Assembly: GCA_014729675.1 (NCBI GenBank)
Contig: WJJM01000034.1
Coordinates: 1-44,599 of the forward strand
Source of the DNA: Candidatus Woesearchaeota archaeon
GTDB taxonomy: Archaea > Nanobdellota > Nanobdellia > Woesearchaeales > WJKL01
Direction of reading: 5' to 3'
DNA length: 44,599 nt
Part shown: positions 2,278-25,228 of the stretch, in pieces
Position numbering within the stretch: position 1 is the first letter of the stretch
How the letters are laid out: every line of letters starts with the position of its first letter
Translations under genes and position numbers: made by a program
Notes under the pieces: generated by a model
The model's input: the letters and a program-made list of their open reading frames with translations, nothing else
Databases searched by the model: none
What the model was told of the DNA's origin: nothing

Positions 2278-2730
2278 ATGGAAAAACAAAAAAATAATCA
2301 AAAAAAAGCAAAAAAACAGGAAACAGAACAAAATATAGAAGAACTTACATCTGCATTAAAACAGGTACAGGCAGATTTTGAAAATTACAGAAAAAGAACA
2401 GAAAAAGAACAGGAAAAACTCTGCAGATCAGCTTCTAAAGAGCTTATAATAGATATTTTGCCTGTCTTAGACTCATTTGAACTTGCTTTAAAGGACAAGC
2501 AGGATAAGGGTCTTGAAATGCTTTATTCTCAGCTTATGAGCATATTAGAGAAAAAAGGATTAAAACAGATAGAAGCATTAGACAAGAAATTTGATCCCTA
2601 TCTTCATGAAGCCCTGCTTCAGGAAAAATCAGAAAAAGAAGAAGGTATTGTATTAGAAGAGCTGCAGAAAGGATATATGCTTAATGATGATGTTGTAAGG
2701 CATACAAAAGTAAAAGTAAGCAAGAAGTAA
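2278..2730 (+). CDS. grpE: GrpE nucleotide exchange factor
   Basis: GrpE releases ADP from DnaK so that the Hsp70 cycle can continue in the cytoplasm. The 150-residue protein has the usual layout: a charged, Lys/Gln-rich N-terminal tail, a long coiled coil (about 15-70, with the family motif QADFENYRKRTEKE), a four-helix-bundle region and a C-terminal beta domain containing FDPYLHEALL and LQKGYMLNDDVVRHTKVKVS. It is slightly short because the N-terminal tail is short. It is first in the chaperone operon, with AAGAAAAGGGAA before the ATG as a weak ribosome binding site. Presence in an archaeon implies past acquisition of the bacterial DnaK system, as in several other archaeal groups. Confidence 0.95.
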   Translation: MEKQKNNQKKAKKQETEQNIEELTSALKQVQADFENYRKRTEKEQEKLCRSASKELIIDILPVLDSFELALKDKQDKGLEMLYSQLMSILEKKGLKQIEALDKKFDPYLHEALLQEKSEKEEGIVLEELQKGYMLNDDVVRHTKVKVSKK

Positions 2731-2763
2731 GTTTCAGAAGATTAGAAAAAACCAAAAAACAAG

Positions 2764-3267
2764 ATGCAGATAACAAAAAACACAAGCAGGGAAGAAGCAT
2801 TAAAGCTTGGAAAAGAATGCAGCAGATGCGGAAACTGCTGCAGCCATGACTCTGGGTATATGCTTGAAGAAGATATCAAAAGGATAGCAGAACATCTGCA
2901 GATCCCAGAAAAAGAGCTCAAAGAAAAATATCTGAAAAAACTAAAACTATTCAATACAACAATACACAAGCCTATAACAAAAACACAACCATTTGGAGAA
3001 TGCGTTTTTTACAAAGAAAAAGCATGCACTATCCAGGATGTTAAGCCCCTGCACTGCAGGATAGGAAGCTGCTCTGAACACGGAGAAGAATTGACAGTCT
3101 GGTTTAAGCTTAATTTTTTAGTCAACCAGAACGATCCTGACTCCATAAGACAATGGAATGTCTATCTTGAGTCAGGCGGAAAAAATATCCCTGGAGGAGA
3201 ACTGGAAGAATTAGTGCCAGACAAAGAGACACTAAAAAAAGTTATGGATTACAGGATAATCAGATAA
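2764..3267 (+). CDS. YkgJ-like Cys-cluster (CxxCxxCC) protein
   Basis: This 167-residue protein belongs to the family with an N-terminal CxxCxxCC cluster (PF03692, annotated as putative zinc/iron-chelating). The cluster is seen as CSRCGNCC near residues 20-27, and two further Cys-bearing segments follow (CVFYKEKACTI and HCRIGSC), enough to bind an Fe-S cluster or zinc. No substrate is known for the family. It sits between grpE and dnaK, 33 bases after grpE and 12 before the next gene, so it is co-transcribed with the chaperones. That hints at a role in redox or metal stress rather than proving one. Confidence 0.8.
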   Translation: MQITKNTSREEALKLGKECSRCGNCCSHDSGYMLEEDIKRIAEHLQIPEKELKEKYLKKLKLFNTTIHKPITKTQPFGECVFYKEKACTIQDVKPLHCRIGSCSEHGEELTVWFKLNFLVNQNDPDSIRQWNVYLESGGKNIPGGELEELVPDKETLKKVMDYRIIR

Positions 3268-3279
3268 GGAGGAATAAAA

Positions 3280-3636
3280 ATGTCAGAAGAAAAAAAACTA
3301 AATATGAGCATAAGTGAAGGAGATGAATTTTTTGCCCATGAATTGAGCATTAATTTTAACCCGATGCAGTTTACCTTTGACTTTAAATGCGTAACTCCAA
3401 GAGTTGACGCAAGGTCAAAAGAAGCTCCTACGATCGTAGCAAAGCATAACGTGGTAATGACAGATCCTTATCATGCTAAGCAGATATTAAGCCTGCTTAA
3501 GAATGTAATAGAAAACTATGAAGAGCAGTATGGGAAGATAGAGAAGCCTTCTGCTATGAAAGAGTTTGAAAAAAAGCAGAAGAAAAAAGGCAAAGAGCCT
3601 AAAAATAAGACAAGAACACCCAGCTATTTTGGCTAG
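3280..3636 (+). CDS. DUF3467-like small protein
   Basis: A 118-residue soluble protein with a beta-rich core (ELSINFNPMQFTFDFKCVTPR), an acidic helix (AKQILSLLKNVIENYEEQYG), a Lys-rich linker and the terminal motif TPSYFG. The pattern of a short NF-x-FTFDF strand followed by a helix ending in YG matches my memory of DUF3467, small proteins of unknown function; the family assignment is tentative. A strong GGAGGA ribosome binding site precedes the ATG, and dnaK follows after 26 bases, so it is part of the chaperone operon. Confidence 0.6.
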   Translation: MSEEKKLNMSISEGDEFFAHELSINFNPMQFTFDFKCVTPRVDARSKEAPTIVAKHNVVMTDPYHAKQILSLLKNVIENYEEQYGKIEKPSAMKEFEKKQKKKGKEPKNKTRTPSYFG

Positions 3637-3662
3637 GATGATACTAAACGGAGGTCAAAAAA

Positions 3663-5588
3663 ATGACAGATGAAAAAACAGAACAGAAAACAAAAGAAGA
3701 AAACAAAGAAAAAGCACAGCCTGGAAAGACAATAGGAATAGATTTAGGAACAACTTTCTCAGCAGTCGCAGCGATGGAAGCTGGAAAAGCAAACATAATA
3801 CCGAATGCAGAAGGAGACAGGACAACTCCGTCTGTTGTTACTATAAAAGACGGAGAAAGATTGGTGGGAAAAGTAGCCAAGAACCAGGCTATAACAAATC
3901 CAGACCATACCATCAGAAGCATAAAGAGATTGATGGGAACAGATGAAAAAGTGACTATAGACGGAAAGGATTACACACCTCAGGAAGTCTCAGCAATGGT
4001 CCTTCAGAAGCTAAAGGCAGATGCTGAAGCATATCTTGGAAGCAAGGTAACAAATGCAGTTATCACTGTCCCTGCTTATTTCGAAGATTCTCAGAGGCAG
4101 GCAACAAAAGATGCTGGAAAGATAGCAGGCCTTAATGTGCTTAGGATCATAAACGAGCCTACTGCAGCATCATTGGCTTACGGCCTTGACAAGAAAAAAG
4201 ATGAGACCGTTCTTGTCTTTGATTTTGGTGGAGGGACATTCGATGTTTCCATACTTGAACTTTCAGAAGGAGTCTTTGAAGTAAAGGCAACTTCAGGAAA
4301 CAACCACCTTGGAGGAGATGACATAGACCAGCTGCTTATCGACTTTATGGCAGATGAGTTCAAGAAAGAGAACAATCTTGACCTGAGAGAGGATGCTATG
4401 GCATTGCAGAGATTAAAAGAGGCAGCTGAAAAATCAAAGATAGAGCTTTCTTCAGCGCAAAAGACAACTATCAACATCCCTTATGTTACACAGACACAGG
4501 AAGGGCCTAAGCATCTTAACATGGAGCTGACAAGGGCAAAGTTCGAGAGCATCATATCCGACATCCTGGAAAACCTGAAAAAGCCTACAGAACAGGCGCT
4601 GAAGGATGCAAAATTGTCCTCAGGAGATGTTGACGAGGTCATACTCGTAGGAGGTTCAACAAGGATCCCTGCAGTGCAGAAGATGGTCAAAGAGATTGCA
4701 GGAAGAGAGCCTAACAAGTCAGTAAATCCTGACGAAGCAGTAGCTTTAGGAGCAGCTATCCAGGGTGGAGTATTAGCTGGAGATGTAAAAGATGTTCTTC
4801 TTTTGGATGTAACACCATTAAGCTTAGGTATTGAAACTCTTGGAGGAGTATTCACAAAGCTTATAGAGAAGAACACGACAATCCCTACAAAGAAAAGCCA
4901 GATATTTTCTACTGCAGCAGACAATCAGCCTGCAGTGACTATCCAGGTATATCAGGGAGAAAGGTCTATGGCTGCAGACAACAAGCAGCTTGGAAAATTC
5001 GACCTTGTCGGAATACCTCCAGCTCCAAGAGGAGTCCCTCAGATAGAAGTAACATTTGATATAGACGCAAATGGAATAGTCAATGTATCTGCAAAAGACA
5101 TTGGAACAGGAAAAGAGCAGAAGATAACAGTGACAGGAGCGCAGCGTCTGGACGATACAGATGTTGAGAAGATGCAGAAAGAGGCAGAAGCCCACGCAGA
5201 GGAGGATAAGAAAAAGAAAGAAGAGATAGAGACAATCAACAAGGCAGATGCTCTGGTATATTCAACAGAAAAGACATTAAAAGACATGAAAGGAAAGGTT
5301 GATGATAAGAAACTGGACGATATCAAGAAGCATGTCGACGAGCTCAAGAAACTGATGGAGCCTGAGAAGAAGGAGGTAGAGAAGATAAAGGCAAAGCTGG
5401 ATGAGATAGAGAAAGTAAGCCAGGCTGCTGCAACAGAGATGTATCAGAAAGCTGCACAAGAACAGCAAAAAGCCCAGGCTCATCAGGGAAAACAAGAAAC
5501 TCCAAAAGAAGAGAAGAAAGACGACAACGTGGTTGACGCAGAATACGAAGAGAAGAAAGACAAGAAAGAAGATAAGGAAAAGAAGTAA
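3663..5588 (+). CDS. dnaK: DnaK (Hsp70) chaperone
   Basis: ATP-dependent Hsp70 chaperone that binds exposed hydrophobic segments of client proteins, working with the DnaJ and GrpE of the same operon. The 641-residue protein is full length. It has an unusual Lys/Glu-rich N-terminal extension of about 22 residues before GIDLGTT (25-31), then the ATPase domain ([13 protein letters not shown] phosphate motif; [13 protein letters not shown]), the substrate-binding beta domain ([17 protein letters not shown]), a helical lid and a low-complexity tail with VVDAEYEE, the bacterial-type C-terminal motif. A strong GGAGGT ribosome binding site lies seven bases before the ATG. The sequence is clearly bacterial-type. 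Confidence 0.97.
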
Positions 5589-5616
5589 GTTTTTTCTTTA
5601 TTTTTTATTTTTTATC
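5589..5616 (+). terminator. T-rich terminator candidate after dnaK
   Basis: Immediately after the dnaK stop come three T-runs (TTTTTT, ATTTTTTATTTTTTAT). Oligo-T tracts on the coding strand are the usual signal for archaeal RNA polymerase termination. The downstream Nudix-HAD-HD-dnaJ genes may therefore be made from partial read-through. Confidence 0.45.
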
Positions 5617-5634
5617 TTAAAAAAACCAAAGAAG

Positions 5635-6045
5635 ATGAAAACACAAGAGGCAGCAGCAGGGATAATAACAGACAAAAATAAAAAAGAATTCCTTCTGCTG
5701 AAGAAGAAAGGCGCCTGGACTGGCTGGCAGTTTCCGCAGGGAAAGATTGATAAAGGCGAGACTCCAGAGCAGGCAATAAGAAGAGAGATAGAAGAAGAGA
5801 CAGGAATAAAAGACATCATAGATATCAAAAGACTTCCATATAAGCATGATTATTGGTTTATGGAAAAAGATGAAAAGATACATAAATTTTTAACATTTTT
5901 TATCATGAGTGCAGAAAAGACAGACAATATCACTGTAAGCAAAGAGCATTCAGACTTCAAATGGTGCGGATATGAAGAAGCTTTAAAAGACCTAAAATAC
6001 AACAAGGAGATATTTGAGGAAGCAGTAAAAAACCATCTAAGATGA
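5635..6045 (+). CDS. Nudix hydrolase
   Basis: A 136-residue Nudix enzyme, which would hydrolyse a nucleoside diphosphate linked to another group. The Nudix box is complete: GKIDKGETPEQAIRREIEEE followed by TGI, fitting G-x5-E-x7-REUxEExGU. The preceding WTGWQFPQG is typical of the diadenosine polyphosphate hydrolase/RppH branch, so Ap4A or capped RNA is a plausible substrate (inference). The open frame extends upstream into the T-rich dnaK terminator, but family length and the Lys/Phe-only upstream residues argue for the ATG at 5635. Its stop overlaps the start of the HAD gene (ATGA). Confidence 0.88.
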   Translation: MKTQEAAAGIITDKNKKEFLLLKKKGAWTGWQFPQGKIDKGETPEQAIRREIEEETGIKDIIDIKRLPYKHDYWFMEKDEKIHKFLTFFIMSAEKTDNITVSKEHSDFKWCGYEEALKDLKYNKEIFEEAVKNHLR

Positions 6046-6674
6046 TAAAAAAAGAGATAAAAGCAGTATTTTTGGACTTTGACCTTACATTAGTAGATTC
6101 AAGGCCTGCTGTAAAAGCTACGTACAAAAGATTGAGCAAGCTTATAGGGAAAAAGCCAACTAAAAAAGGATTTCAGGAATATGTTGGAAGCAGGTTTTCA
6201 GAAGTTATAGAGAAACTTCATAAAGAATCAGGAATTCCCAAAAAAAAGCTGATAGATGTCTATCATAAGACATATATAGGCAATGTTTCAAAGCTAAGAT
6301 ATTATGGAAAAAGCCTGGTATCAAAACTTAATAAAAAAGGAATAACGATCATAATACTGACAAACAACCATAAAGAAACAGTAAAAAAATCATGCGATCA
6401 TTTCAATATAAGGTACAATAAGCTGATAGCAGATAAGGACATGAAAAAAGGCGAGAAAAAGCATGATGCCATAAAAAAAGAATTAAAAAGTATGAGACTA
6501 AATCCTTCAGAAGCATTATATGTGGGAGACCATATAAATGACATAAAAGAGGCAGACAAGGCTGGAATAAGTTCAGTTATTGTCCCGACTGGGGTCTTCA
6601 AAAAGCTGGAACTGAAAAGGCACAATCCTGATCTCATAATACCCAGCCTTAACAAACTTGCAAAGGTAATATAA
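6042..6674 (+). CDS. HAD-superfamily phosphatase
   Basis: A 210-residue haloacid dehalogenase-type hydrolase, probably a small-molecule phosphatase. Motif I is FLDFDLTLVDS with nucleophile Asp12 and acid/base Asp14; motif II is IIILTNN; a conserved Lys lies before motif IV YVGDHINDIKEA, which holds the Mg-binding acidic residues. The helical cap between residues 20 and 90 is of the phosphoglycolate phosphatase (Gph) type. It starts within the Nudix stop codon and the HD gene starts one base after its stop, so the three are translationally coupled. The actual substrate cannot be told from sequence. Confidence 0.82.
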   Translation: MIKKEIKAVFLDFDLTLVDSRPAVKATYKRLSKLIGKKPTKKGFQEYVGSRFSEVIEKLHKESGIPKKKLIDVYHKTYIGNVSKLRYYGKSLVSKLNKKGITIIILTNNHKETVKKSCDHFNIRYNKLIADKDMKKGEKKHDAIKKELKSMRLNPSEALYVGDHINDIKEADKAGISSVIVPTGVFKKLELKRHNPDLIIPSLNKLAKVI

Positions 6675-6675
6675 G

Positions 6676-7188
6676 ATGGTACCTTCAACAGAAGAATGCA
6701 AAAGATTATGGGATGAATTTGATATGCCTGAAAATATAAGGCAGCACTCGCTTAATGTCAATAAAGCTGCTATGCAGATAGCAGAAAAGCTTAAAAAAGC
6801 AGGAGAGGATATTGACCTTGGACTGGTAAATGCAGCTTCACTGCTCCATGATCTTGACAAGTTCAGGACACTGGATGATGTGCACAATCACGGCCATATG
6901 GCAGAATCCTGGCTAAAAGAAAGAGGCTACAATAAAGTAGGAGAGGTCATAAGAAAACACATCGTCCCTGAGATAATGAAAGACAGCAAAGCAGGCTGGG
7001 AAGACAAGGTCGTAAATTATGCTGATAAAAGGGTGCTGAACGAAAAGATAGTAAGCCTGGAAAAAAGGTTTGAATATCTGAGAAAAAGATACAGAAAATT
7101 TTTTTCAAAAGACCACGAAGATGCGATAATAGCGCTTGAAGATAAGATATTTAAAAAGATGGATATAACACCGGATGATATAATATGA
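6676..7188 (+). CDS. HD-domain phosphohydrolase
   Basis: A 170-residue HD-domain protein. The metal-binding pattern is visible as RQHSLNV (His24), SLLHDLDKF (His58-Asp59) and further His residues at HNHGHM around 70-74, with a later Asp in NYADKRV. It resembles small HD hydrolases acting on nucleotides or phosphate esters. The C-terminal helices ([15 protein letters not shown]) are very basic. The dnaJ start codon overlaps its stop (ATGA), so it belongs to the chaperone transcript. I cannot assign a substrate. Confidence 0.8.
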
Positions 7189-8279
7189 CACAAAAAGATT
7201 ACTATAAAGTATTAGGAGTAGGTAAAGATGCAACTAAAGAAGAGATAAAGAAAGCCTACAAGAAACTGGCTAAGAAGTATCATCCTGATCTTAACAAAGA
7301 TAATCCTGATGCTGAACAGAAGTTCAAGGAGCTTAATGAAGCAGCTTCTGTGCTGGCTGATGATGAGAAGAGGCAGCAGTATGACCAATATGGAACAACT
7401 GCAGATAATTTCTCAGGAGGACAGGGAGCAAGAGGATTCAATTTTGAAGACATGATGGGAGACTTTGGATTTGATTTTGACAGCATATTTGAGTCTTTCT
7501 TTGGTGGGGGAAGAAGGACAAGGTCAAGAAAAAGAGGCCATGACCTAAGATATGATATAGAGATAACATTAGAGGAGGCATTCAACGGGGTAGATAAGAC
7601 TATAACAGTTCCGCGACTTGAAACATGTCCTGAATGCGATGGAAAAGGTGCAAAATCAGAAGATGATGTAGACGAGTGCCCTGAATGCGGCGGAACAGGG
7701 GTTATGAAAAGGACACAGAGAACTCCTTTTGGACTATTCACGACTCAATCACCCTGCAGAGCATGCCATGGGCAGGGAACTTATGTAAAAAACCCATGTC
7801 CTGGATGCAGTGGAGAAGGGCGGGTTGAAAAGACAAGGAAACTGGAAGTAAAGATCCCTGCAGGAGCAGAAACAGGCACTAATCTAAGGCTTGTAGGTGA
7901 AGGAGAAGCAGGAGAGAAAAATGCAGGAACAGGAGACCTTTATGTGATAGTCCATGTAAAAGATGACAAGAGATTTGAAAGGCACGGAGATGACCTTTAT
8001 ATTGAGATAGCTATAACATTCCCTCAGGCCGCATTAGGGGCAGAGATAGATGTCCCCACAATAGAGGGAAAAGCTTCATTAAAGATACCTGCAGGAACAC
8101 AGTCTGGAACAGTATTAAGGATGAGAAACAAAGGTATGCCTAATCTCCATTCTTCAGGAAGAGGGGACCAGCTTGTAAAAGCTGTTATCCAAACACCAAA
8201 AAAAATAACTAAAAAACAGAAGGATATTCTTAAGCAGTTTGACAAAGGCAACAAGTCTAAACTCTTTGGATTGTTCTAG
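7185..8279 (+). CDS. dnaJ: DnaJ (Hsp40) co-chaperone
   Basis: Co-chaperone that delivers clients to DnaK and stimulates its ATPase. At 364 residues it is a complete type I DnaJ: the J domain with HPD at 33-35, a Gly/Phe-rich linker (about 75-110), four CxxCxGxG zinc motifs (starting at 148, 165, 191 and 205), and two beta-sandwich client-binding domains ([37 protein letters not shown]). It is last in the chaperone operon, overlapping the HD gene by four bases. The next gene converges on it with one base between stops, leaving no room for separate terminators. Confidence 0.97.
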
Positions 8280-10239: not shown

Positions 10240-11631
10240 TCATAACCTTTTTCTGGTGCTTTTGTTTTTATCATATGTAAACTCTTCAAGATATTCAAGC
10301 TTTTCTGACATTACTATTCTTTGGAGCTTTCTGATCGCTTTAGACTCTATTTGCCTTATCCTTTCTCTTGTGACATCTATGCCCTGCCCTAACTCATCTA
10401 AAGTGTGTGTTTCTCCGTCTTTAAGCCCGTATCTGCCCTCTATAACATATCGTTCTCTCGCATCCAATACACAAAGGAGATTGTCTATGCTTTTTTTCAT
10501 CTGTTTGGTCTGTGTTTTTGTATAAGGGGCTTTAATCTTTGAATCCATTATAGTGCCGAATGTTGAGTTTTTTTCTTTTACAGAATCCAGAGATATTATG
10601 TTTGTTGTTTTGCTTAACTTTTCTATATTTCCCCTCTTAATGTCCAGTGCTTCAGAGATATATTCTAAATCAGGATATCTTCCATTTTCAGCAAAATATC
10701 TGTTCTTATACTCATTTATCTTTTTCTTTTCATGCACCCTGCCATTAGGCAGCCTTATTGTATCTGTGTTATCAGTTATACCTCTGTTTATTGATTGTTT
10801 TATCCACCATGTTGAATATGTTGAGATCCTTGTATCGTATATCTTTATATTAAATTTTTCTATCGATCTCATAAGTCCTATGTTTCCAAACTGTATGATG
10901 TCAAGAAAAGGCAACCCCCCATGGGCATAATTCTTTGCTATACTGACAACAAGCCTCAGGTTGCTTTCTGCAAGTTTTTTCTTCACAGTTTCATATTTTA
11001 GATACAGATTCCTGAACTTGTCCACTTTTCTTTTGTCTTTGCACTCCCAAAGGAACATATCAAAGAAATTTTTCATAAAATCTTCTTTAGGAGACATCTT
11101 TTCAACAGCATCTTTTATCTTTTTATTATATCCTGTTTTTTTCTTTTGAAGAGATTGTACTATGCCCGAAAGCATATCTTTAAGTTTATCTTCAAGGGCC
11201 ATATCATTATAATCCCTGCAGTAGAAAAACATCCTGCTTATGCCTGTAGTTGTCCCAGAATCTCTGACTCTTGAGTCTATCTCCCTGACTAAAGGAAGAT
11301 GTGTAAACATAAGGTTTGACATCTCCATGAAATTATCATGCTTAGCTTCAAGCAGCTTTCTTTCCTCTTTTTTGCTAAGAAGATCGTATCTGCTTATATC
11401 ATCAAGATATGCTCTTATTGTGGATTTATCTGAATCTGAGACAAAATTATCATCGCTTCCTGACCTATATACCTTTATCCCATTTGCTCCTAATAAGGAA
11501 ATGACCCTATCATAGCGGTTTTCAGGTATGTCATTATCTTCAAGAAACTTATGAAGCTTATCATCCCTTAACCTTTTTCTTCCATGAAAATGTTTCCTTA
11601 TCTTTTCTTCAAGGCTTTTGTCTTTTTCCAT
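10240..11631 (-). CDS. Sigma-70 (RpoD-like) transcription initiation factor
   Basis: A 463-residue protein with the full architecture of a bacterial primary sigma factor. Residues 20-53 resemble region 1.1; 68-103 are region 1.2 (STIRAYLDDISRYDLLSKKE); 104-215 correspond to the non-conserved insertion; 216-297 are regions 2.1-2.4 (AESNLRLVVSIAKNY, FLDIIQFGNIGLM, TYSTWWIKQSINR); region 3 follows; region 4.2 is at 408-440 (LDELGQGIDVTRERIRQIES). The paired Trp of region 2.3 that melt the -10 element and the Gln of 2.4 are kept; a nearby Thr is Asn. Such factors recruit bacterial RNA polymerase to promoters, a job TFB does in archaea, so its partner polymerase is an open question. It lies 21 bases after the second sigma-like gene, in one operon. 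Confidence 0.93.
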   Translation of the reverse strand: MEKDKSLEEKIRKHFHGRKRLRDDKLHKFLEDNDIPENRYDRVISLLGANGIKVYRSGSDDNFVSDSDKSTIRAYLDDISRYDLLSKKEERKLLEAKHDNFMEMSNLMFTHLPLVREIDSRVRDSGTTTGISRMFFYCRDYNDMALEDKLKDMLSGIVQSLQKKKTGYNKKIKDAVEKMSPKEDFMKNFFDMFLWECKDKRKVDKFRNLYLKYETVKKKLAESNLRLVVSIAKNYAHGGLPFLDIIQFGNIGLMRSIEKFNIKIYDTRISTYSTWWIKQSINRGITDNTDTIRLPNGRVHEKKKINEYKNRYFAENGRYPDLEYISEALDIKRGNIEKLSKTTNIISLDSVKEKNSTFGTIMDSKIKAPYTKTQTKQMKKSIDNLLCVLDARERYVIEGRYGLKDGETHTLDELGQGIDVTRERIRQIESKAIRKLQRIVMSEKLEYLEEFTYDKNKSTRKRL

Positions 11632-11652
11632 GTTTTTGCCCTATATAAAATA

Positions 11653-12780
11653 TCATAGATAATCCTCAATGCACTTTCCACCTCTTGAAAACAATATATA
11701 TAATGAATTTAAAGCTTCTTCTTCTAACTGCCTTATCCTTTCCCTGTTAAGATTAAAATATTCACCTATAGAACTTAAGCTTGGCTTTGATTTTGACTTG
11801 TTGAAAGAAGATTTTTTGATTATCTTTTCAACAAGCTGATCATCAAGACAAAATCTCGCCTTTATGATATCTTTCTTTCTTTCATCCAATGTTTCATCAA
11901 TAGCATCAAATAACATCTCTCTTAAGTCCGGTATTTTAGAAAATGTCTTAGAATTATCTTCAATTCTAAGCTCAGTTACATTTGCCTCTTCAATAAGTTT
12001 TTCAAAAGATTTTGTCCTGTATTTTCCATCCATCACATCTTTAGCCATGCTTAAGCTCATCTTAAGCTTTTTTGCAATTTCCTCAGGTGTTATCTTTGGA
12101 TTATCGTTCATAAGAAAATTAACTTTAGACATATTGTATCTTATGCTATGGGGGACAAATTCATAAAATGAATCAAGAAGAAGATTCATTGTAAATCTTT
12201 TTATCCAGAATGTAGCATAAGTAGTAAACTTTGTATTTTTTTTCAGTTCAAACCTATCAGCAGCTTCATAAAGAGCTAATCTTCCTTCTCCTCTAAGGTC
12301 CCAAAAAAGACCATCATACATTGAAAGCCCATTACTTGCTGCTAAATTACCTGATATCGAATCTGCAAGATTTTTATGAGAAAGCACGATAATATTTCTT
12401 GCTCTTGCATGATTTTCCATATCAATATACTTTGAAAGTTCCATAAATCTGAATATTTCCCTTTCCTGATTTCTACTTAGAAAATTATTCTCCTCAGCAT
12501 CATAATAATCAAATATCCTTGACTTAAGGCATATATATTCTGCACTTTCTCCTAGGATCTCTTTTATTTTCCTTTTTATTACTGAACCTTTCTTGCATCC
12601 TTTTCCTGGCTTTTTCCTTCCTTTTTGTAAAGCTCCTTTTTGCATCCTGTTCAGCAAGGAACTATGATAATAAGAACTGTCATCAAGATAATCCAGATTT
12701 TGATATACATTAAATATCTTAGTTTCGTCTCTTTCTTCTGCTAACATTTCAAGCCTTTTATCAAAATAATCTGTTCTCAT
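11653..12780 (-). CDS. Divergent sigma-70 family factor
   Basis: A 375-residue sigma-70-family protein that lacks region 1.1. Region 2 spans about 126-212 (NIIVLSHKNLADSIS, GLFWDLRGEGRLALYEAADRF, TTYATFWIKRF), with Phe-Trp in place of the usual Trp-Trp of region 2.3. Region 3 (TPEEIAKKLKMSLSMAKDVM) and the region 4.2 helix-turn-helix (SLSSIGEYFNLNRERIRQLE) follow. Region 4 carries a Lys/Ser-rich insertion before the helix-turn-helix (around 318-333). The N-terminal 125 residues contain a basic stretch (QKGRKKPGKGCKKGSVIKRK) of unknown role. It is the first gene of the two-sigma operon. Its promoter, overlapping that of the divergent methyltransferase gene, is of archaeal BRE/TATA type. Confidence 0.88.
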   Translation of the reverse strand: MRTDYFDKRLEMLAEERDETKIFNVYQNLDYLDDSSYYHSSLLNRMQKGALQKGRKKPGKGCKKGSVIKRKIKEILGESAEYICLKSRIFDYYDAEENNFLSRNQEREIFRFMELSKYIDMENHARARNIIVLSHKNLADSISGNLAASNGLSMYDGLFWDLRGEGRLALYEAADRFELKKNTKFTTYATFWIKRFTMNLLLDSFYEFVPHSIRYNMSKVNFLMNDNPKITPEEIAKKLKMSLSMAKDVMDGKYRTKSFEKLIEEANVTELRIEDNSKTFSKIPDLREMLFDAIDETLDERKKDIIKARFCLDDQLVEKIIKKSSFNKSKSKPSLSSIGEYFNLNRERIRQLEEEALNSLYILFSRGGKCIEDYL

Positions 12781-12799
12781 GATACATATACCTTATCTT

Positions 12800-12842
12800 C
12801 AATATTTAAAGATTCCTGAAATTTGATAGAAAGCTTTAAAAT
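12800..12842. promoter_or_regulatory. Divergent archaeal promoters for the sigma operon and methyltransferase
   Basis: On the minus strand GGAATCTTTAAATATTG (12816-12800) is a BRE/TATA pair about 25 bp before the sigma-operon ATG, implying a leaderless or nearly leaderless message. On the plus strand GAAAGCTTTAAAAT (12829-12842) is placed about 25 bp before the methyltransferase ATG. The two boxes are only 12 bp apart, so the two preinitiation complexes probably compete. Confidence 0.55.
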
Positions 12843-12864
12843 TAAAGCAAGATAATAGGGGAAT

Positions 12865-13401
12865 ATGGATGAAAAATTCCAGCAGATAAAGAGAAGATAT
12901 GAACGGTTCTACAGAAAGTTCAGGGAAAAGAGCCAGTACCCTGTAGCTGACACAGAAAAAGGCATCTGGGGATATGCTGATACAGATTCTTTGTTTCAGT
13001 TCTTTAAGGATATCCATCTGGAAAAGTATGGCTCTTTTGTGGATATAGGCTCAGGGGATGGAAAGGTCGTTCTCATAGCAGCTTTGTTTGGAGTAAAGGC
13101 AGTAGGTATAGAGTATGACAAAGACCTTATAGATGTGTCCAATGATATAAAACAAGAACTCAACCTAGATGCAGAATTTATCCAGGGAGACTATCTTGAA
13201 CAGAACCTAAGTGATTATGATATCATCTTTATCAATCCTGATAAAGGTTTTCATCTGAAGGTTGAAGAAAAGCTGCTTAAAGATATGAAAGATACGACAA
13301 TACTTTATGTATATAATGAGCTTTTCCAGCCAAGGTTTCTTGAGAAAATAAGCAAGCTTTGGTACAACCAGATTCCTGTAATCGAATACAGGAAAAGATG
13401 A
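12865..13401 (+). CDS. Class I SAM-dependent methyltransferase-like protein
   Basis: A 178-residue Rossmann-fold protein. Motif I for S-adenosylmethionine is FVDIGSGDGKV (about 57-67), followed by an acidic residue ending the second strand (AVGIEYDKDLI) and a motif IV-like YDIIFINPDK. The region before motif I (ADTDSLFQFF) resembles DOT1/PrmA-like small methyltransferases. The NPDK motif suggests methylation of an amide or amino nitrogen, but the substrate is unknown. It is divergent from the sigma operon and its stop is adjacent to that of the convergent DUF483 gene. Confidence 0.72.
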   Translation: MDEKFQQIKRRYERFYRKFREKSQYPVADTEKGIWGYADTDSLFQFFKDIHLEKYGSFVDIGSGDGKVVLIAALFGVKAVGIEYDKDLIDVSNDIKQELNLDAEFIQGDYLEQNLSDYDIIFINPDKGFHLKVEEKLLKDMKDTTILYVYNELFQPRFLEKISKLWYNQIPVIEYRKR

Positions 13402-14064
13402 TCAGATAAATTCAAAGAGCCTTTCTTCTATATTGAACTTTCCTTTTAATCTTTCAGAGAAATAATCAGCCATCTCAGGATCATGTTTCTTTATGATATC
13501 AAGATGATTCTTTGCCAGTTTGATAGAGTTTTCACAGTTAAAGCTGCAGGGAAAATGATTTAACAAAGTTATATCCATGCTTCTTTTCAGTATATTTGTA
13601 TAGAAAGGAAACTCACTGCCTCCTGAATTCTCTGCAGTACATACAGTATAATCACTGTCAAGCCTGCTTCTTTCAGGCTCATGTTTTTTGAAGAATCTGC
13701 AGCAGCATTCTGGATATCCTAAAGCTTTTCCAAGATTTATATGGTTGTTGTTGGCTTCATGAAAATTTGCTTTCTTTGCTTTTTCTTTGCCTTTGGAGAT
13801 ATATGCAAATACCATGCCTTCTCTTGGGTCATCTGCATCTACTTTTATCCCTTTGTTTGAATAGGCACCATGGTCCATCAAAACAATCTTGTAAGGGGAG
13901 AATTCTATATACAGGCCTTTTTCTTTGCAGAAGTCTGTTATCTTCCTGATCTCATTATGGTAGAATCCCTGCCTAACTACTGGCTTGACATCTTCTAGAA
14001 GATATAATATCTCCAAGGCTTTTGTCTTTGTCCCGAATATCTTAAACAGATTTTCTATCATCAT
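13402..14064 (-). CDS. DUF483-family protein
   Basis: A 220-residue protein resembling DUF483 (PF04467), a mainly archaeal family of unknown function. Signatures seen are LGYPECCCRFFKKHEPER in the middle and HFPCSFNCENSIKLAKNH near the C-terminus, giving at least six Cys and several His that could bind a metal. An N-terminal helical region (LFKIFGTKTKALEILYLLED) precedes. It is soluble and lies 24 bases downstream of the TFB gene in the same orientation, so it is probably in the TFB transcript. No role can be given from the sequence alone. Confidence 0.75.
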   Translation of the reverse strand: MMIENLFKIFGTKTKALEILYLLEDVKPVVRQGFYHNEIRKITDFCKEKGLYIEFSPYKIVLMDHGAYSNKGIKVDADDPREGMVFAYISKGKEKAKKANFHEANNNHINLGKALGYPECCCRFFKKHEPERSRLDSDYTVCTAENSGGSEFPFYTNILKRSMDITLLNHFPCSFNCENSIKLAKNHLDIIKKHDPEMADYFSERLKGKFNIEERLFEFI

Positions 14065-14088
14065 AAGAAAAAAATAAAAAAGAAATTA

Positions 14089-15009
14089 TTATTTCTTCTT
14101 CTTTGTCTTCTTGACCTCTTTTTCAAGGTCAAGCTTGTCAAGAAGCTCTTTGTATCTGTTTCTTATTGTAACTTCAGTTACACCAGCTACATCTGCAACT
14201 TCTCTTTGGGTTCTTTTTTCTCCATGAAGTAATGCAGAGACATACAAAGCAGCAGCTGCAATTCCAGTAGGCCCTCTTCCTGAAGTAAGCTCAGATTTTT
14301 GAGCACTTTCCAATATCTCTATACTTCTTGACTGTGATTCAGGAGAAAGCTTCAAAGCAGAGGCAAATCTCGCTATATAATCAGCAGGATTTGAAGGAAG
14401 TATTGTTATCCCTAATTCTCTTGCAACAAATCTGTATGTTCTTCCTATCTCTTTCTTTTCTATCCCAGAAGCTTCTGAAAGCTCATCCAATGTCCTTGGC
14501 ACATCATGCCTTCTGCATGCAGCATATAATGCTCCTGAAACAACAGACTCCATGCTCCTTCCGCGGACAAGGCCCCTCTGTACAGCTAAAGTGTATATCC
14601 TGGCTGATTCTTCTTCTACAGACTTAGGCAGGTTCAGATATGAAGATACTCTTTTAAGTTCAGCTAATGCTAATTTAAGATTTCTTTCTATTGCAGTAGA
14701 TATCCTGTACTGCCATTTTCTTAATCTGAAAAACTTATTCCTGTCTTTTGACCCAAGCTTAAACAAATCTCCGCTTTGTCCTACTTCTGTTCCAAGCCCC
14801 TGGTCAAATTGTGTATATGTCATAGGAGCTCCTGTCCTTCTTTTCTTTTCAGCTCCGTCAGAATCAAACTCACGCCATTCCTGGCTAAAATCAACCATCT
14901 TATCTTCTATAACAAGTCCGCAGTCTTTACAGACAACTTCCCCTTTTTCTCTGTTCCAGAATAGGTTTATTCCAGCACATTCTGGACATTTTTTTATTAG
15001 TTCAGGCAT
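14089..15009 (-). CDS. tfb: Transcription initiation factor B (TFB)
   Basis: Archaeal homologue of eukaryotic TFIIB, which bridges the TBP-DNA complex and RNA polymerase. The 306-residue protein is complete. It has an N-terminal zinc ribbon with Cys8, Cys11, Cys27 and Cys30, the B-finger/linker (GAPMTYTQFDQGLGTEVG), and two cyclin folds (about 105-200 and 205-300) ending in the BRE-reading helix-turn-helix TQREVADVAGVTEVTIRNRY. All key parts are intact, so normal archaeal initiation must operate in the cell that carries the nearby sigma genes. GAGGATG provides a ribosome binding site before the ATG. The C-terminus is a Lys tail. Confidence 0.96.
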   Translation of the reverse strand: MPELIKKCPECAGINLFWNREKGEVVCKDCGLVIEDKMVDFSQEWREFDSDGAEKKRRTGAPMTYTQFDQGLGTEVGQSGDLFKLGSKDRNKFFRLRKWQYRISTAIERNLKLALAELKRVSSYLNLPKSVEEESARIYTLAVQRGLVRGRSMESVVSGALYAACRRHDVPRTLDELSEASGIEKKEIGRTYRFVARELGITILPSNPADYIARFASALKLSPESQSRSIEILESAQKSELTSGRGPTGIAAAALYVSALLHGEKRTQREVADVAGVTEVTIRNRYKELLDKLDLEKEVKKTKKKK

Positions 15010-15090
15010 ATTTTCATCCTCGCATAGGTTTAAGTAATATTATACTTTACTTTTTATTGTTCTCCCACCACCCCTATTAACCGGGAATTA

Positions 15091-15137
15091 CAATATATTT
15101 ATATATAATATAGAGAATTCATTTATAAAGCTTTCTA
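15091..15137 (-). promoter_or_regulatory. Candidate tfb promoters
   Basis: On the minus strand, TAGAAAGCTTTATAAATG (15137-15120) is a consensus-like BRE/TATA giving a leader of about 90 bases. A second box, TTATATATAAATATATTG (15108-15091), could give a shorter one. The leader contains a conspicuous G-rich segment (GGGGTGGTGGGAG) of unknown role, possibly regulatory. Confidence 0.45.
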
Positions 15138-15152
15138 TTTTTATTCTCTTTT

Positions 15153-15192
15153 GCGAAAGCCTTAAATATTTAACTGAGAAAGATTTATAAGA
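15153..15192 (+). promoter_or_regulatory. Two strong BRE/TATA boxes facing the non-coding interval
   Basis: GCGAAAGCCTTAAATAT (15153-15169) and GAGAAAGATTTATAAG (15176-15191) each fit the archaeal BRE/TATA form well, pointing rightwards. No protein gene follows on this strand for over 4 kb; the first known gene is tRNA-Ser, more than 500 bases away with its own TATA box. They therefore argue for transcription of a non-coding RNA across the repeats that follow. Confidence 0.5.
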
Positions 15193-15337
15193 TTAACTTA
15201 TTGGTTGTTAATCCTATATCTAAGTCAGGTTTTGGTACATATTATTGAAAGTATCTATTGTTGATTATTTATGATTCTTAAGATATAAACATCTTAATCA
15301 TATCTTTAAGTCAGACTTTGATATATATCATTTAAAG
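15191..15337 (+). repeat. Tandem structured repeat, two ~86-bp units
   Basis: Two 42-base segments (15210-15251 and 15296-15337) match at about 33 positions by eye; both contain TAAGTCAG, TTTG and ATAT at the same offsets. Each is preceded by its own, different stem-loop: GATTAAC/GTTAATC (15191-15213) before the first, and GATTCTTAAGAT pairing with ATCTTAATC (15273-15299) before the second. The stems vary while the following segment is conserved. The units lie directly after two strong promoters, so they may be tandem small RNA genes or parts of one structured transcript. Confidence 0.5.
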
Positions 15338-15390
15338 CCTGCAAATTTTTTTAATATTTCCAAAAAGCAAAATAAGATTCAATCCTATTT

Positions 15391-15420
15391 GTGGCACTCA
15401 CAGCTTCGCTGTTCGTGCAC
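15391..15420 (+). repeat. Imperfect hairpin in the non-coding interval
   Basis: GCACTCACAG, a CTTCG loop and CTGTTCGTGC form two 4-bp helices separated by a TC/TC internal loop. It is more G+C-rich than its surroundings and could be part of the putative non-coding transcript or its terminator. Confidence 0.35.
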
Positions 15421-15498
15421 AGCCTCTCTTCGATTTAAGTCGAGTTCTGGCTTTGATGCAATCTACTGGTCATCTATCTAAGTCAACTGAGCACTAAA

Positions 15499-15547
15499 CG
15501 CCTCTGTCTCAGTGGTAAGGTTAGCGAGCAAAGCGAGCGTTATGAAT
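15499..15547 (+). repeat. 49-bp dispersed direct repeat, copy 1
   Basis: CGCCTCTGTCTCAG at the left end and AGCGAGCAAAGCGAGCG near the right end. It aligns without gaps to 19141-19189, with 42 of 49 positions identical by eye. The right part itself holds a direct repeat of GCGAGC. It lies in the same orientation as the other copy, 3,642 bp away, and each is followed by the variable-stem element described nearby. Confidence 0.75.
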
Positions 15548-15558
15548 TAGGAATGAAT

Positions 15559-15602
15559 AATCTTATTCATAAGGCAGCTTAACTGACTTAGAGAATAAGA
15601 TT
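15559..15602 (-). repeat. Variable-stem/conserved-loop element, unit 1
   Basis: AATCTTATTC (15559-15568) and GAATAAGATT (15593-15602) form a perfect 10-bp stem around a 24-base loop containing AAGGCAG, five bases, then CTGACTTAGA. The same loop core with different stem sequences recurs at 19226-19332, and the CTAAGTCAG motif recurs inverted at 15210-15337 and near 15478. A degenerate right half (CTGATTTAGTCAATAAGATT) is at 15994-16013. Conserved loop plus covarying stem is the pattern of a structured RNA or a small mobile element. Confidence 0.55.
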
Positions 15603-15705
15603 GAAAATTTTTAATAAAGAAATAATACTATAAGAAATCCAATTGACATATGATTCAAGACTATATTTTCAAAACTTAGCCAGAAATCAACATTTTAATA
15701 GATAG

Positions 15706-15715
15706 TTTTAAAAAT
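15706..15715 (+). promoter_or_regulatory. TATA box of tRNA-Ser
   Basis: TTTTAAAAAT preceded by GATAG, ending 23 bases before the first base of the tRNA; this is the normal archaeal spacing. Confidence 0.5.
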
Positions 15716-15738
15716 AAACCAATATCTCCTGATATTAT

Positions 15739-15900
15739 GCCAGCGTCGCATAACCCGGTATTGCGTCGGCCTTGAGCCTAACTGGTGATTTGATTGATCT
15801 TGAAATGATCCAGACGAAAGCAAGCCGATTTCCTAACGGATATCCCGGTCAGTTTGATGTAAGAGCATCAACTGGGGAAATTCAAATCCGGGCGCTGGCG
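15739..15900 (+). tRNA. tRNA-Ser(UGA) with two apparent introns
   Basis: The acceptor stem is GCCAGCG (15739-15745) with CGCTGGC (15893-15899), discriminator G15900, no encoded CCA. The D arm is GCA/TGC with A14 and GG in the loop. The anticodon stem is TCGGC (15766-15770) with GCCGA, and the loop reads CTTGA before an intron of about 45 bases that ends just before AAGCCGA; the anticodon is TGA. A long variable arm (TCC-TAAC-GGA) confirms class II, hence serine. The T stem CCCGG (15844-15848) pairs with CCGGG (15888-15892), but about 32 bases, folding as CAGTTTGATG/CATCAACTG, separate CCCGG from the loop TTCAAAT. That is a second, non-canonical intron at the T stem-loop border. Exact bulge-helix-bulge cut sites cannot be fixed by eye. 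Confidence 0.85.
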
Positions 15901-16052
15901 TATTTTACTTTTCTTAACAAAATTTCTTATCACATTCTCTAAGATTTGCATTTAAATGATATACAAAAAACTAGCAAAATCAGAGCCAGAACACTGATTT
16001 AGTCAATAAGATTAAGGTGATTTTTTAACTTATTTAAATTAGGCGTCTACAT
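15901..16052. other. Short AT-rich spacer after tRNA-Ser
   Basis: No gene seen. It contains a T-rich stretch right after the tRNA (possible terminator), a 7-bp inverted repeat AAATCAG/CTGATTT (15977-16000), and a degenerate half of the repeat element (15994-16013). Confidence 0.4.
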
Positions 16053-24463: not shown

Positions 24464-25228
24464 ATGGTATCAATATTTCAGGCATTAATACTCGGTATAA
24501 TTCAGGGGATAACAGAATGGCTCCCTGTATCTTCTTCAGGCCATCTAGTTCTTATGCAGAATCTTTTTGGACTTGAGCCGCCAGTTATATTTGATCTTGT
24601 GCTCCATATAGGAAGTCTGCTTGTTGTTTTCATAGTCTTCTGGAAAGACATCAAGGAACTTGTTTTGGGAGTCATAAAAAAAGACAGGAAATATCTTTCT
24701 TATGCTTTATTCCTTATCCTTTCTACGATCCCGATAGGTTTTGTAGGAATAATATTCAACAGCCAGATAAAAGCTGTATTCAATGATCCAAGGACAGTCG
24801 GTTTTTCTTTGCTTTTTACAGCGATGCTGCTTTTCCTTTCAAGGTTCCCTAAAAAGAAGAACAAGAGACTAAACCTGAAGAACATACTGGTCATAGGTTT
24901 TGCCCAGGCACTTGCTATCCTTCCTGGAGTCTCAAGATCAGGCTCCACGATCTCAGTAGGTCTTATCCAGGGAGTAAACAGGGAAGAAGCAGCAAGATTT
25001 TCATTTCTTATGTTTATCCCAGCAATATTAGGGGCCACATTGATGGAGATAAAAGATATAGCAGCACTCACAGCAGACATTCCTGCCCTGGTGATAGGCA
25101 CTTTGGCAGCAGTTATAACAGGAGTCATATCATTAAAACTTCTATTGGCAATAATAAAAAAAGACAGTTTCCATCATTTTGCATGGTACTGCCTGGCTCT
25201 TGGAATAGTTATTCTTTTGATTATATAA
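24464..25228 (+). CDS. uppP: Undecaprenyl-diphosphatase-like UppP/BacA
   Basis: Integral membrane phosphatase that recycles polyprenyl diphosphate to the monophosphate carrier used in surface glycan assembly; in archaea the lipid would be a dolichol-type polyprenol. The 254-residue protein has the two hallmark motifs, GITEWLPVSSSGHL (15-28) and PGVSRSGST (154-162), each in a re-entrant segment, and seven to eight hydrophobic helices. GGTAGATAG precedes the ATG. It stands alone but serves the glycan clusters elsewhere in the window. Confidence 0.95.
   Translation: MVSIFQALILGIIQGITEWLPVSSSGHLVLMQNLFGLEPPVIFDLVLHIGSLLVVFIVFWKDIKELVLGVIKKDRKYLSYALFLILSTIPIGFVGIIFNSQIKAVFNDPRTVGFSLLFTAMLLFLSRFPKKKNKRLNLKNILVIGFAQALAILPGVSRSGSTISVGLIQGVNREEAARFSFLMFIPAILGATLMEIKDIAALTADIPALVIGTLAAVITGVISLKLLLAIIKKDSFHHFAWYCLALGIVILLII

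Follow-up and report, generated by a model that had tools for sequence, protein, structure and literature searches.

Sigma-70 homologues in a woesearchaeal genome with two TFB genes and a single RNA polymerase of archaeal type

Contig WJJM01000034.1 of Candidatus Woesearchaeota archaeon (assembly GCA_014729675.1), here called the window, is one entire contig (C20; 44,599 nucleotides) of a 1.44 Mb genome that consists of 72 contigs and is 91.7% complete with 4.76% estimated contamination. It encodes two proteins of the sigma-70 family, sigma A and sigma B, and close to them the archaeal transcription factor TFB. A third sigma-70 protein (sigma C) and a second TFB are encoded outside the window, beyond the view of a preliminary description of this DNA. 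Three sigma-70 homologues are thus present in a genome with two TFB genes and a single RNA polymerase, which is of the archaeal type. The central features of the window are the following, with protein domains given in residues.

10240..11631, minus strand: sigma A, RpoD-like sigma-70 protein, 463 amino acids (Pfam, NCBIfam and PDB matches)
11632..11652, minus strand: 21-bp spacer between sigma B and sigma A
11653..12780, minus strand: sigma B, divergent sigma-70 protein, 375 amino acids, first gene of the B-A pair (Pfam and PDB matches)
12805..12816, minus strand: TFB recognition element (BRE) and TATA box, GGAATC TTTAAA, at -36/-30 relative to the start codon of sigma B
14089..15009, minus strand: TFB (TFIIB homologue), 306 amino acids (NCBIfam and Pfam matches)
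Sigma A domains: region-1.1-like N-terminus about 7-60, region 1.2 71-93, region 2 220-288, region 4 386-437
Sigma B domains: partial region 2 161-197, region 4 297-360

Three sigma-70 homologues and the archaeal transcription apparatus

The preliminary description had read both window proteins as sigma-70 factors, and the profile searches bear this out, with regions 2 and 4 over the Pfam cut-off in each. Sigma A exceeds the cut-offs for Sigma70_r4 (53.2 bits), r2 (43.9) and r1_2 (23.4, cut-off 22). Its top match in the PDB is an RpoD (E 3.6e-49), and the NCBIfam model of the RpoD C-terminus gives 219.4 bits, the equivalog cut-off of 354 not being reached. To call region 3 readable in both proteins was generous, since Pfam region 3 had no match in either at E 0.01; the alignments of both to RpoD models and chains continue through this stretch. 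The N-terminus of sigma A resembles region 1.1: it scores 16.9 bits with Pfam r1_1, under the cut-off of 22.5, and E 1.1e-5 with a home-made bacterial region-1.1 profile, the column range of which was set by an alignment containing sigma A. Among the 46 proteins scanned with that profile the next whole-protein E value was 0.11, and the best single stretch in sigma C gave 0.01.

Sigma A is 40% identical to E. coli RpoD over RpoD residues 375-605. For the roles of single RpoD residues in promoter and core contacts we rely on assignments that we take to be correct. W433, W434, Q437, D403, Q406 and N409 (E. coli RpoD numbering) are retained in sigma A, as are 14 of the 15 listed region-4.2 positions, including R584, E585, R588 and Q589; region 3.0 and finger positions differ. 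The marks of group 1 (RpoD), namely region 1.2, the -10 tryptophan pair and the -35 helix residues, are present together in sigma A only. Judged from its sequence, sigma A is closest to RpoD/SigA, which it resembles in this identity, in region 1.2 and perhaps in the region-1.1-like start, but from which it departs in the NCBIfam score, in a phenylalanine at E407, in the altered region 3.0 and finger, and in the archaeal polymerase of its genome. AlphaFold models of sigma A and sigma B had mean confidence scores (pLDDT) of 75.2 and 64.8. The 50 best Foldseek rows for each were all sigma-polymerase entries (best E 2.1e-15 for sigma A and 5.7e-9 for sigma B), with low TM-scores of 0.17-0.47.

Sigma B and sigma C are in sequence more divergent than sigma A. 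In sigma B, region 4 (37.1 bits) and region 2 (25.7 bits) exceed the Pfam cut-offs, the latter match being limited to profile positions 25-61, and the top PDB match is a SigA (E 9.2e-15). Sigma C (437 amino acids) is encoded on contig C2 at about 10.4-11.7 kb (locus L003, 997-2310), flanked by a gene of the pyrBI type and one that encodes methyltransferase domains. It exceeds the cut-off for region 4, and region 2 reached 22.3 bits as a protein (cut-off 24) and 26 bits in the genome search. The alignment of sigma A with sigma C is near full length (E 2.5e-19), which points to paralogues. One tryptophan of the pair is found in sigma B and none in sigma C, while R584, E585, R588 and Q589 are retained in both. 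Mean retention of -10 and core-contact residues was 0.36 and 0.23 in sigma B, and 0.27 and 0.38 in sigma C. In two genomes of the same family, a gene with a similar beginning (by eye) lies near pyr-like genes, 1-3 kb from tfb; no sigma match was found there.

The TFB of the window is intact, as the preliminary description had it: the zinc ribbon and two TFIIB (cyclin-like) repeats are over the Pfam cut-offs, and the score with NCBIfam PRK00423, 407.7 bits, exceeds the threshold of 384. It shares 89% identity with the TFB of two genomes of the same family and 44% with the second TFB of its own genome (contig C62; locus L169, 4641-5552). Two TFB matches were also found in five of 14 other genomes searched, one of those matches being partial. 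The search of the whole genome for a bacterial-like polymerase, which had been proposed earlier, yielded none: Rpb2 domain 6 has a single match, and it is archaeal, within an operon with split Rpo1, split Rpo2 and Rpo5.

In the direction of transcription, the minus-strand genes follow one another as TFB, DUF483, sigma B and sigma A; a methyltransferase gene of the plus strand separates DUF483 from sigma B. From the start of sigma B to the stop of TFB it is 1.3 kb, the distance given in the preliminary description, and two genes lie in between.

12865..13401, plus strand: methyltransferase gene (Pfam DOT1 and class I methyltransferase), divergent from sigma B
13402..14064, minus strand: DUF483 protein gene (Pfam match), between TFB and the methyltransferase gene

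The region upstream of tfb (15038-16052) is a stretch of about 1 kb without an open reading frame (ORF) of 80 amino acids. Within it are several imperfect repeats, both direct and inverted, such as 15582-15602 and 15993-16013 (86%), and an Rfam search of the window, this stretch included, found no RNA family at gathering scores. Elsewhere the window encodes GrpE, DnaK and DnaJ (2278-8279), a BacA-family protein (24464-25228) and a DUF1385 protein (498-1400). According to PMC8204110, a bacterial DnaK-DnaJ-GrpE system is present in many DPANN archaea.

The sigma genes appear to be expressed from archaeal promoters. In 130 upstream regions of this genome, TTTATA/TTTAAA peaks 21-30 bases before the start codon, and a BRE with TATA box starts 31-40 bases before the start codon in 19 of them (mean 0.29 and maximum 3 in shuffled sequences). 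The element of sigma B stands at this usual place, and the divergent methyltransferase gene has its own BRE and TATA box, also at -36/-30. Sigma B and sigma A have the same orientation, and in the 80 bases upstream of sigma A there is no BRE+TATA match, TTTATA occurring only at -18; co-transcription with sigma B can thus be inferred, and expression of the pair probably relies on the standard archaeal machinery. Sigma C has CTTATA at -30, and the TFB upstream region gave no BRE+TATA match. When 41 archaeal sigma ORFs, taken from their longest possible starts, were scanned with a pattern looser than BRE+TATA and with no estimate of the background, 23 had a TATA-like element near -30; sigma C was among the 18 misses despite its CTTATA.

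Occurrence and origin of the sigma genes

A join of archaeal and bacterial DNA within this contig had been named earlier as a possible objection. The data do not point that way: the tetranucleotide profile at 10-16 kb fits the contig evenly (r 0.93-0.97; a join of DNA of like composition would escape), sigma C lies on contig C2, and relatives carry sigma genes as well. The profile search of archaeal genomes suggested in the preliminary description was productive. Across the phylum, 371 genomes were sampled; Sigma70_r2 was found in 128 of them, and in 94 of the 244 with a completeness of 90% or more and a contamination of no more than 5%. It was also found in 28 of the 60 genomes of a search among relatives, and within the order 63 of 352 genomes gave a match to sigma A at E 1e-20; the genome studied here is counted within the 28, the 63 and the 128. 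One relative with sigma genes is assembled as a single contig. The third sigma gene, the even composition, the spread among relatives and the archaeal polymerase make it most likely that the sigma genes belong to these archaea.

For tree and residue comparison, 42 archaeal sigma ORFs were chosen by similarity to the sigmas of the genome studied here, and 41 were left after sigma C (L079) was dropped. From the best 80 bacterial loci, all with bacterial titles, 65 ORFs were taken; loci without an ORF over the limit were lost, one locus gave two, and E. coli FliA was below the limit. E. coli RpoD was shortened in the tree and used whole in the residue comparison. In the tree, computed with a quick method from 72 rows (including 25 of the 65 bacterial ORFs and three E. 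coli rows) with 38 of 69 inner branches open, the archaeal label requires seven changes, at least two of them forced by starred branches. Some archaeal rows are short-branched and fall amid those of bacterial RpoD. No well-supported place emerged for sigma A, B or C, and the branches of B and C are very long (3.71 and 3.64 changes per column). It is likely that sigma genes passed from bacteria to archaea more than once. Among the 41 other archaeal sigmas, D403 is retained in 93%, E407 in 88%, W434 in 95%, R584 in 98% and Q589 in 93%, percentages that are biased upward by the choice of rows. Mean retention of finger positions was 0.38 in these rows versus 0.64 in the 65 bacterial ones.

An origin from phages or mobile elements was considered and, on searches of phage records and viral contigs, rejected. 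Sigma A was matched at E 1e-5 by 176 records in a phage set of 50,697; identity stayed under 60% in every case and no match extended over 80% of the protein, which indicates no special tie. Two scans of viral contigs with sigma A and sigma B found no relatives (short exact peptide patterns, an insensitive method).

Tandem sigma genes recur in other genomes, as pairs in L067, L070, L074 and L078 and as triples in L075 and L076. ORFs of more than 500 amino acids, up to 1741, account for 14 of the 41 archaeal sigmas of other genomes. Those of 1109-1741 amino acids have long extensions (L071 2316-7541, L063 5731-9060, L064 5344-8745), which in L063 and L064 reach also beyond region 4. Fourteen large ORFs neighbouring sigma genes were picked by eye. 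Among them, those of L063 and L064 are related (49% identical), as are those of L062 and L072 (a common C-terminal stretch); the one of L074 has relatives in two other contexts, and the rest have none within this set. The large ORF beside the tandem pair of L067 (8847-11666) looks by eye like a primase with an intein-like interruption.

Possible roles of the sigma proteins

It is possible, and the interpretation that we tentatively favour at rather less than even confidence, that sigma A is an initiation factor for the archaeal polymerase of its own cell, used at few promoters, with sigma B and sigma C as accessory or antagonistic paralogues. At a small number of promoters, region 2 of sigma A would grip the clamp coiled coil and open the duplex around a -10-like site, with region 4 recognizing an upstream element. 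The sigma A gene would itself be expressed from a TBP/TFB promoter, and TFB and TFE would be competitors of its product in binding to the polymerase. Sigma B and sigma C, having apparently lost much of the -10 and core contacts and kept region-4 recognition, may act as accessory or antagonistic DNA-binding proteins. The TFB neighbourhood of the sigma pair would be due to chance.

The dedicated alternative initiation system envisaged in the preliminary description may or may not exist: the promoter-contact residues of sigma A are largely retained, but neither polymerase nor promoters look adapted. Several observations weigh against a sigma A that works with its own polymerase. Sigma A has F at E407, N at T440, G at H455 and H at E458. 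The three other genomes of the family have no match to sigma A at E 1e-20 and none to sigma B; one of them, G002, carries a different sigma-70 (L187 2176-2937, 253 amino acids) with regions 2 and 4 over the Pfam cut-off, between topoisomerase-like and nucleotidyltransferase-like genes (by eye). A search for the largest polymerase subunit in 30 genomes gave one Rpo1' match each in 29 (59-78% identical) and none in G120. The clamp helices of Rpo1' are nearly identical in 18 sigma-bearing genomes (our own included) and 11 sigma-less ones, G002 with its other kind of sigma having been placed in neither group, and the most different helices belong to a sigma-bearing genome, G022. At E. coli beta-prime R275, R293 and E295, which we take to be sigma contacts, the archaeal clamp has I, E/D and L/F. 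It has N276, R278, Q300 and N309 in common with E. coli, so that part of the sigma-contact surface is present.

The promoter search belongs to the same side of the balance. The -10/-35 promoter sets for which a search had been proposed showed no enrichment: in 13 sigma-bearing genomes TTGAC-N17-19-TATAAT occurred 61 times, while the reversed order of the elements occurred 63 times and the backward control gave 86. The corresponding numbers were 47 versus 38 and 57 in 10 sigma-less genomes, and 139 versus 39 and 80 in three bacterial controls. In the 130 upstream regions of the own genome neither TTGA/TATAAT pairs nor pairs in reversed order were found, hence this count is uninformative. A genome-wide set of promoters with the E. 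coli consensus is thus not visible; few sites, or sites of other sequence, would escape. Taken together, the clamp comparison and the promoter counts argue against sigma-driven initiation on a broad scale.

Nearly as likely as a role with the own polymerase, and in our view possible if somewhat doubtful, is that the sigma proteins take no part in initiation and are DNA-binding regulators, acting through the helix-turn-helix of region 4, or polymerase blockers, derived from bacterial genes that were acquired repeatedly and diverge fast. The retention in sigma B and sigma C of the four region-4 residues next to few -10 and core-contact residues, their very long branches, the poorly retained finger positions of the archaeal rows, the unadapted clamp and the missing enrichment of E. 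coli-type promoters would all fit such proteins. A plain DNA binder would however not need the -10 melting and region 2.2 residues that are retained in sigma A and in many of the 41 rows, and the archaeal rows that stand short-branched among bacterial RpoD likewise count against this view.

It might also be that the target of the sigmas is a bacterial RNA polymerase, the proteins being delivered into a bacterial partner, host or prey to redirect its transcription, with the own polymerase and promoters purely TBP/TFB-driven. This would explain bacterial-like contacts beside an unadapted polymerase, since residues that presumably contact bacterial core and promoter are retained, while the own polymerase and the genomes showed no matching adaptation in the clamp and promoter tests. 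Some of the smallest-genome Pacearchaeota and Woesearchaeota are described in PMC8204110 as maybe being episymbionts of bacteria, but the genome studied here is not among the smallest seen in this work, and the phenylalanine of sigma A at E407 affects a core contact. We regard this explanation as improbable.

A conserved sigma-TFB module, switching the polymerase between two promoter classes served by TFB and by the tandem sigmas, is very improbable. It is suggested by the adjacency in the window, but a TFB match was found in none of 20 fetched sigma contexts (19 other genomes and the own contig C2; pieces of 10-20 kb with the sigma gene some kb from the ends, in three less than 0.3 kb from one end; blastp, E 1e-4) and a sigma match in none of seven fetched tfb contexts. 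In the single 1.30 Mb contig of G013, tfb is located at 1.16 Mb and a sigma gene at 0.37 Mb. For the genomes examined, these contexts and this spacing rule out a conserved sigma-TFB unit, and E. coli-type promoters, as stated, are not enriched. Of the tandem pair with an archaeal promoter next to tfb that the preliminary description put forward, the co-oriented genes with their 21-bp gap and the BRE/TATA element are confirmed, and a conserved link to tfb is not supported.

Least credible of all is a contig chimera or bacterial contamination, for which the 72 contigs and the contamination estimate would leave room, given the even composition across the junctions, sigma C beside pyrBI and a methyltransferase gene on a second contig, Sigma70_r2 in over a hundred genomes including good ones, the sole and archaeal Rpb2 domain 6, and the exclusion of mis-binning that PMC8204110 reports for its own set.

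Relation to known sigma factors

In the textbook view, bacteria and archaea are set apart by their use of sigma factors and of TBP/TFB, respectively. Rinke et al. reportedly described archaeal sigma factors in 2013. The first description is credited to Rinke and colleagues in PMC6126073, and sigma-70 genes (fam00359, Castelle et al. 2021) are in print for DPANN archaea, prevalent in Woesearchaeota and beside the expected archaeal factors (PMC8204110). In the same paper, the control of DPANN sigma-70 is stated to be unclear, with no anti-sigma factor identified. A literature search limited to CC0, CC BY and CC BY-SA papers in PMC found no experimental study of an archaeal sigma.

The locus thus repeats a published kind of observation, sigma-70 in archaea, and by description the genes are like those of fam00359, being sigma-70 genes of archaeal genomes beside archaeal factors. 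Added here are three paralogues in one genome, the region-1.1-like start of sigma A, the BRE/TATA element upstream, the tandem genes that recur in relatives, and the two adaptation tests of clamp and promoters, both negative; the lack of a link to TFB is a further addition. The only PADLOC family matched by sigma A, B and C at E 0.001 was MzaA, the sigma of the MZA anti-phage system. Sigma A reached 219.6 bits against an NCBIfam cut-off of 800, and the match runs through the sigma regions; on these matches a defence system was rejected.

A cell with both sigma and TBP/TFB poses the question whether an archaeal polymerase can use a sigma factor or whether the sigma is aimed elsewhere. The tests reported here sharpen this question: many sigma contact residues are retained in these proteins, while no matching change is seen in the helices of the polymerase clamp or in the number of E. 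coli-type promoters.

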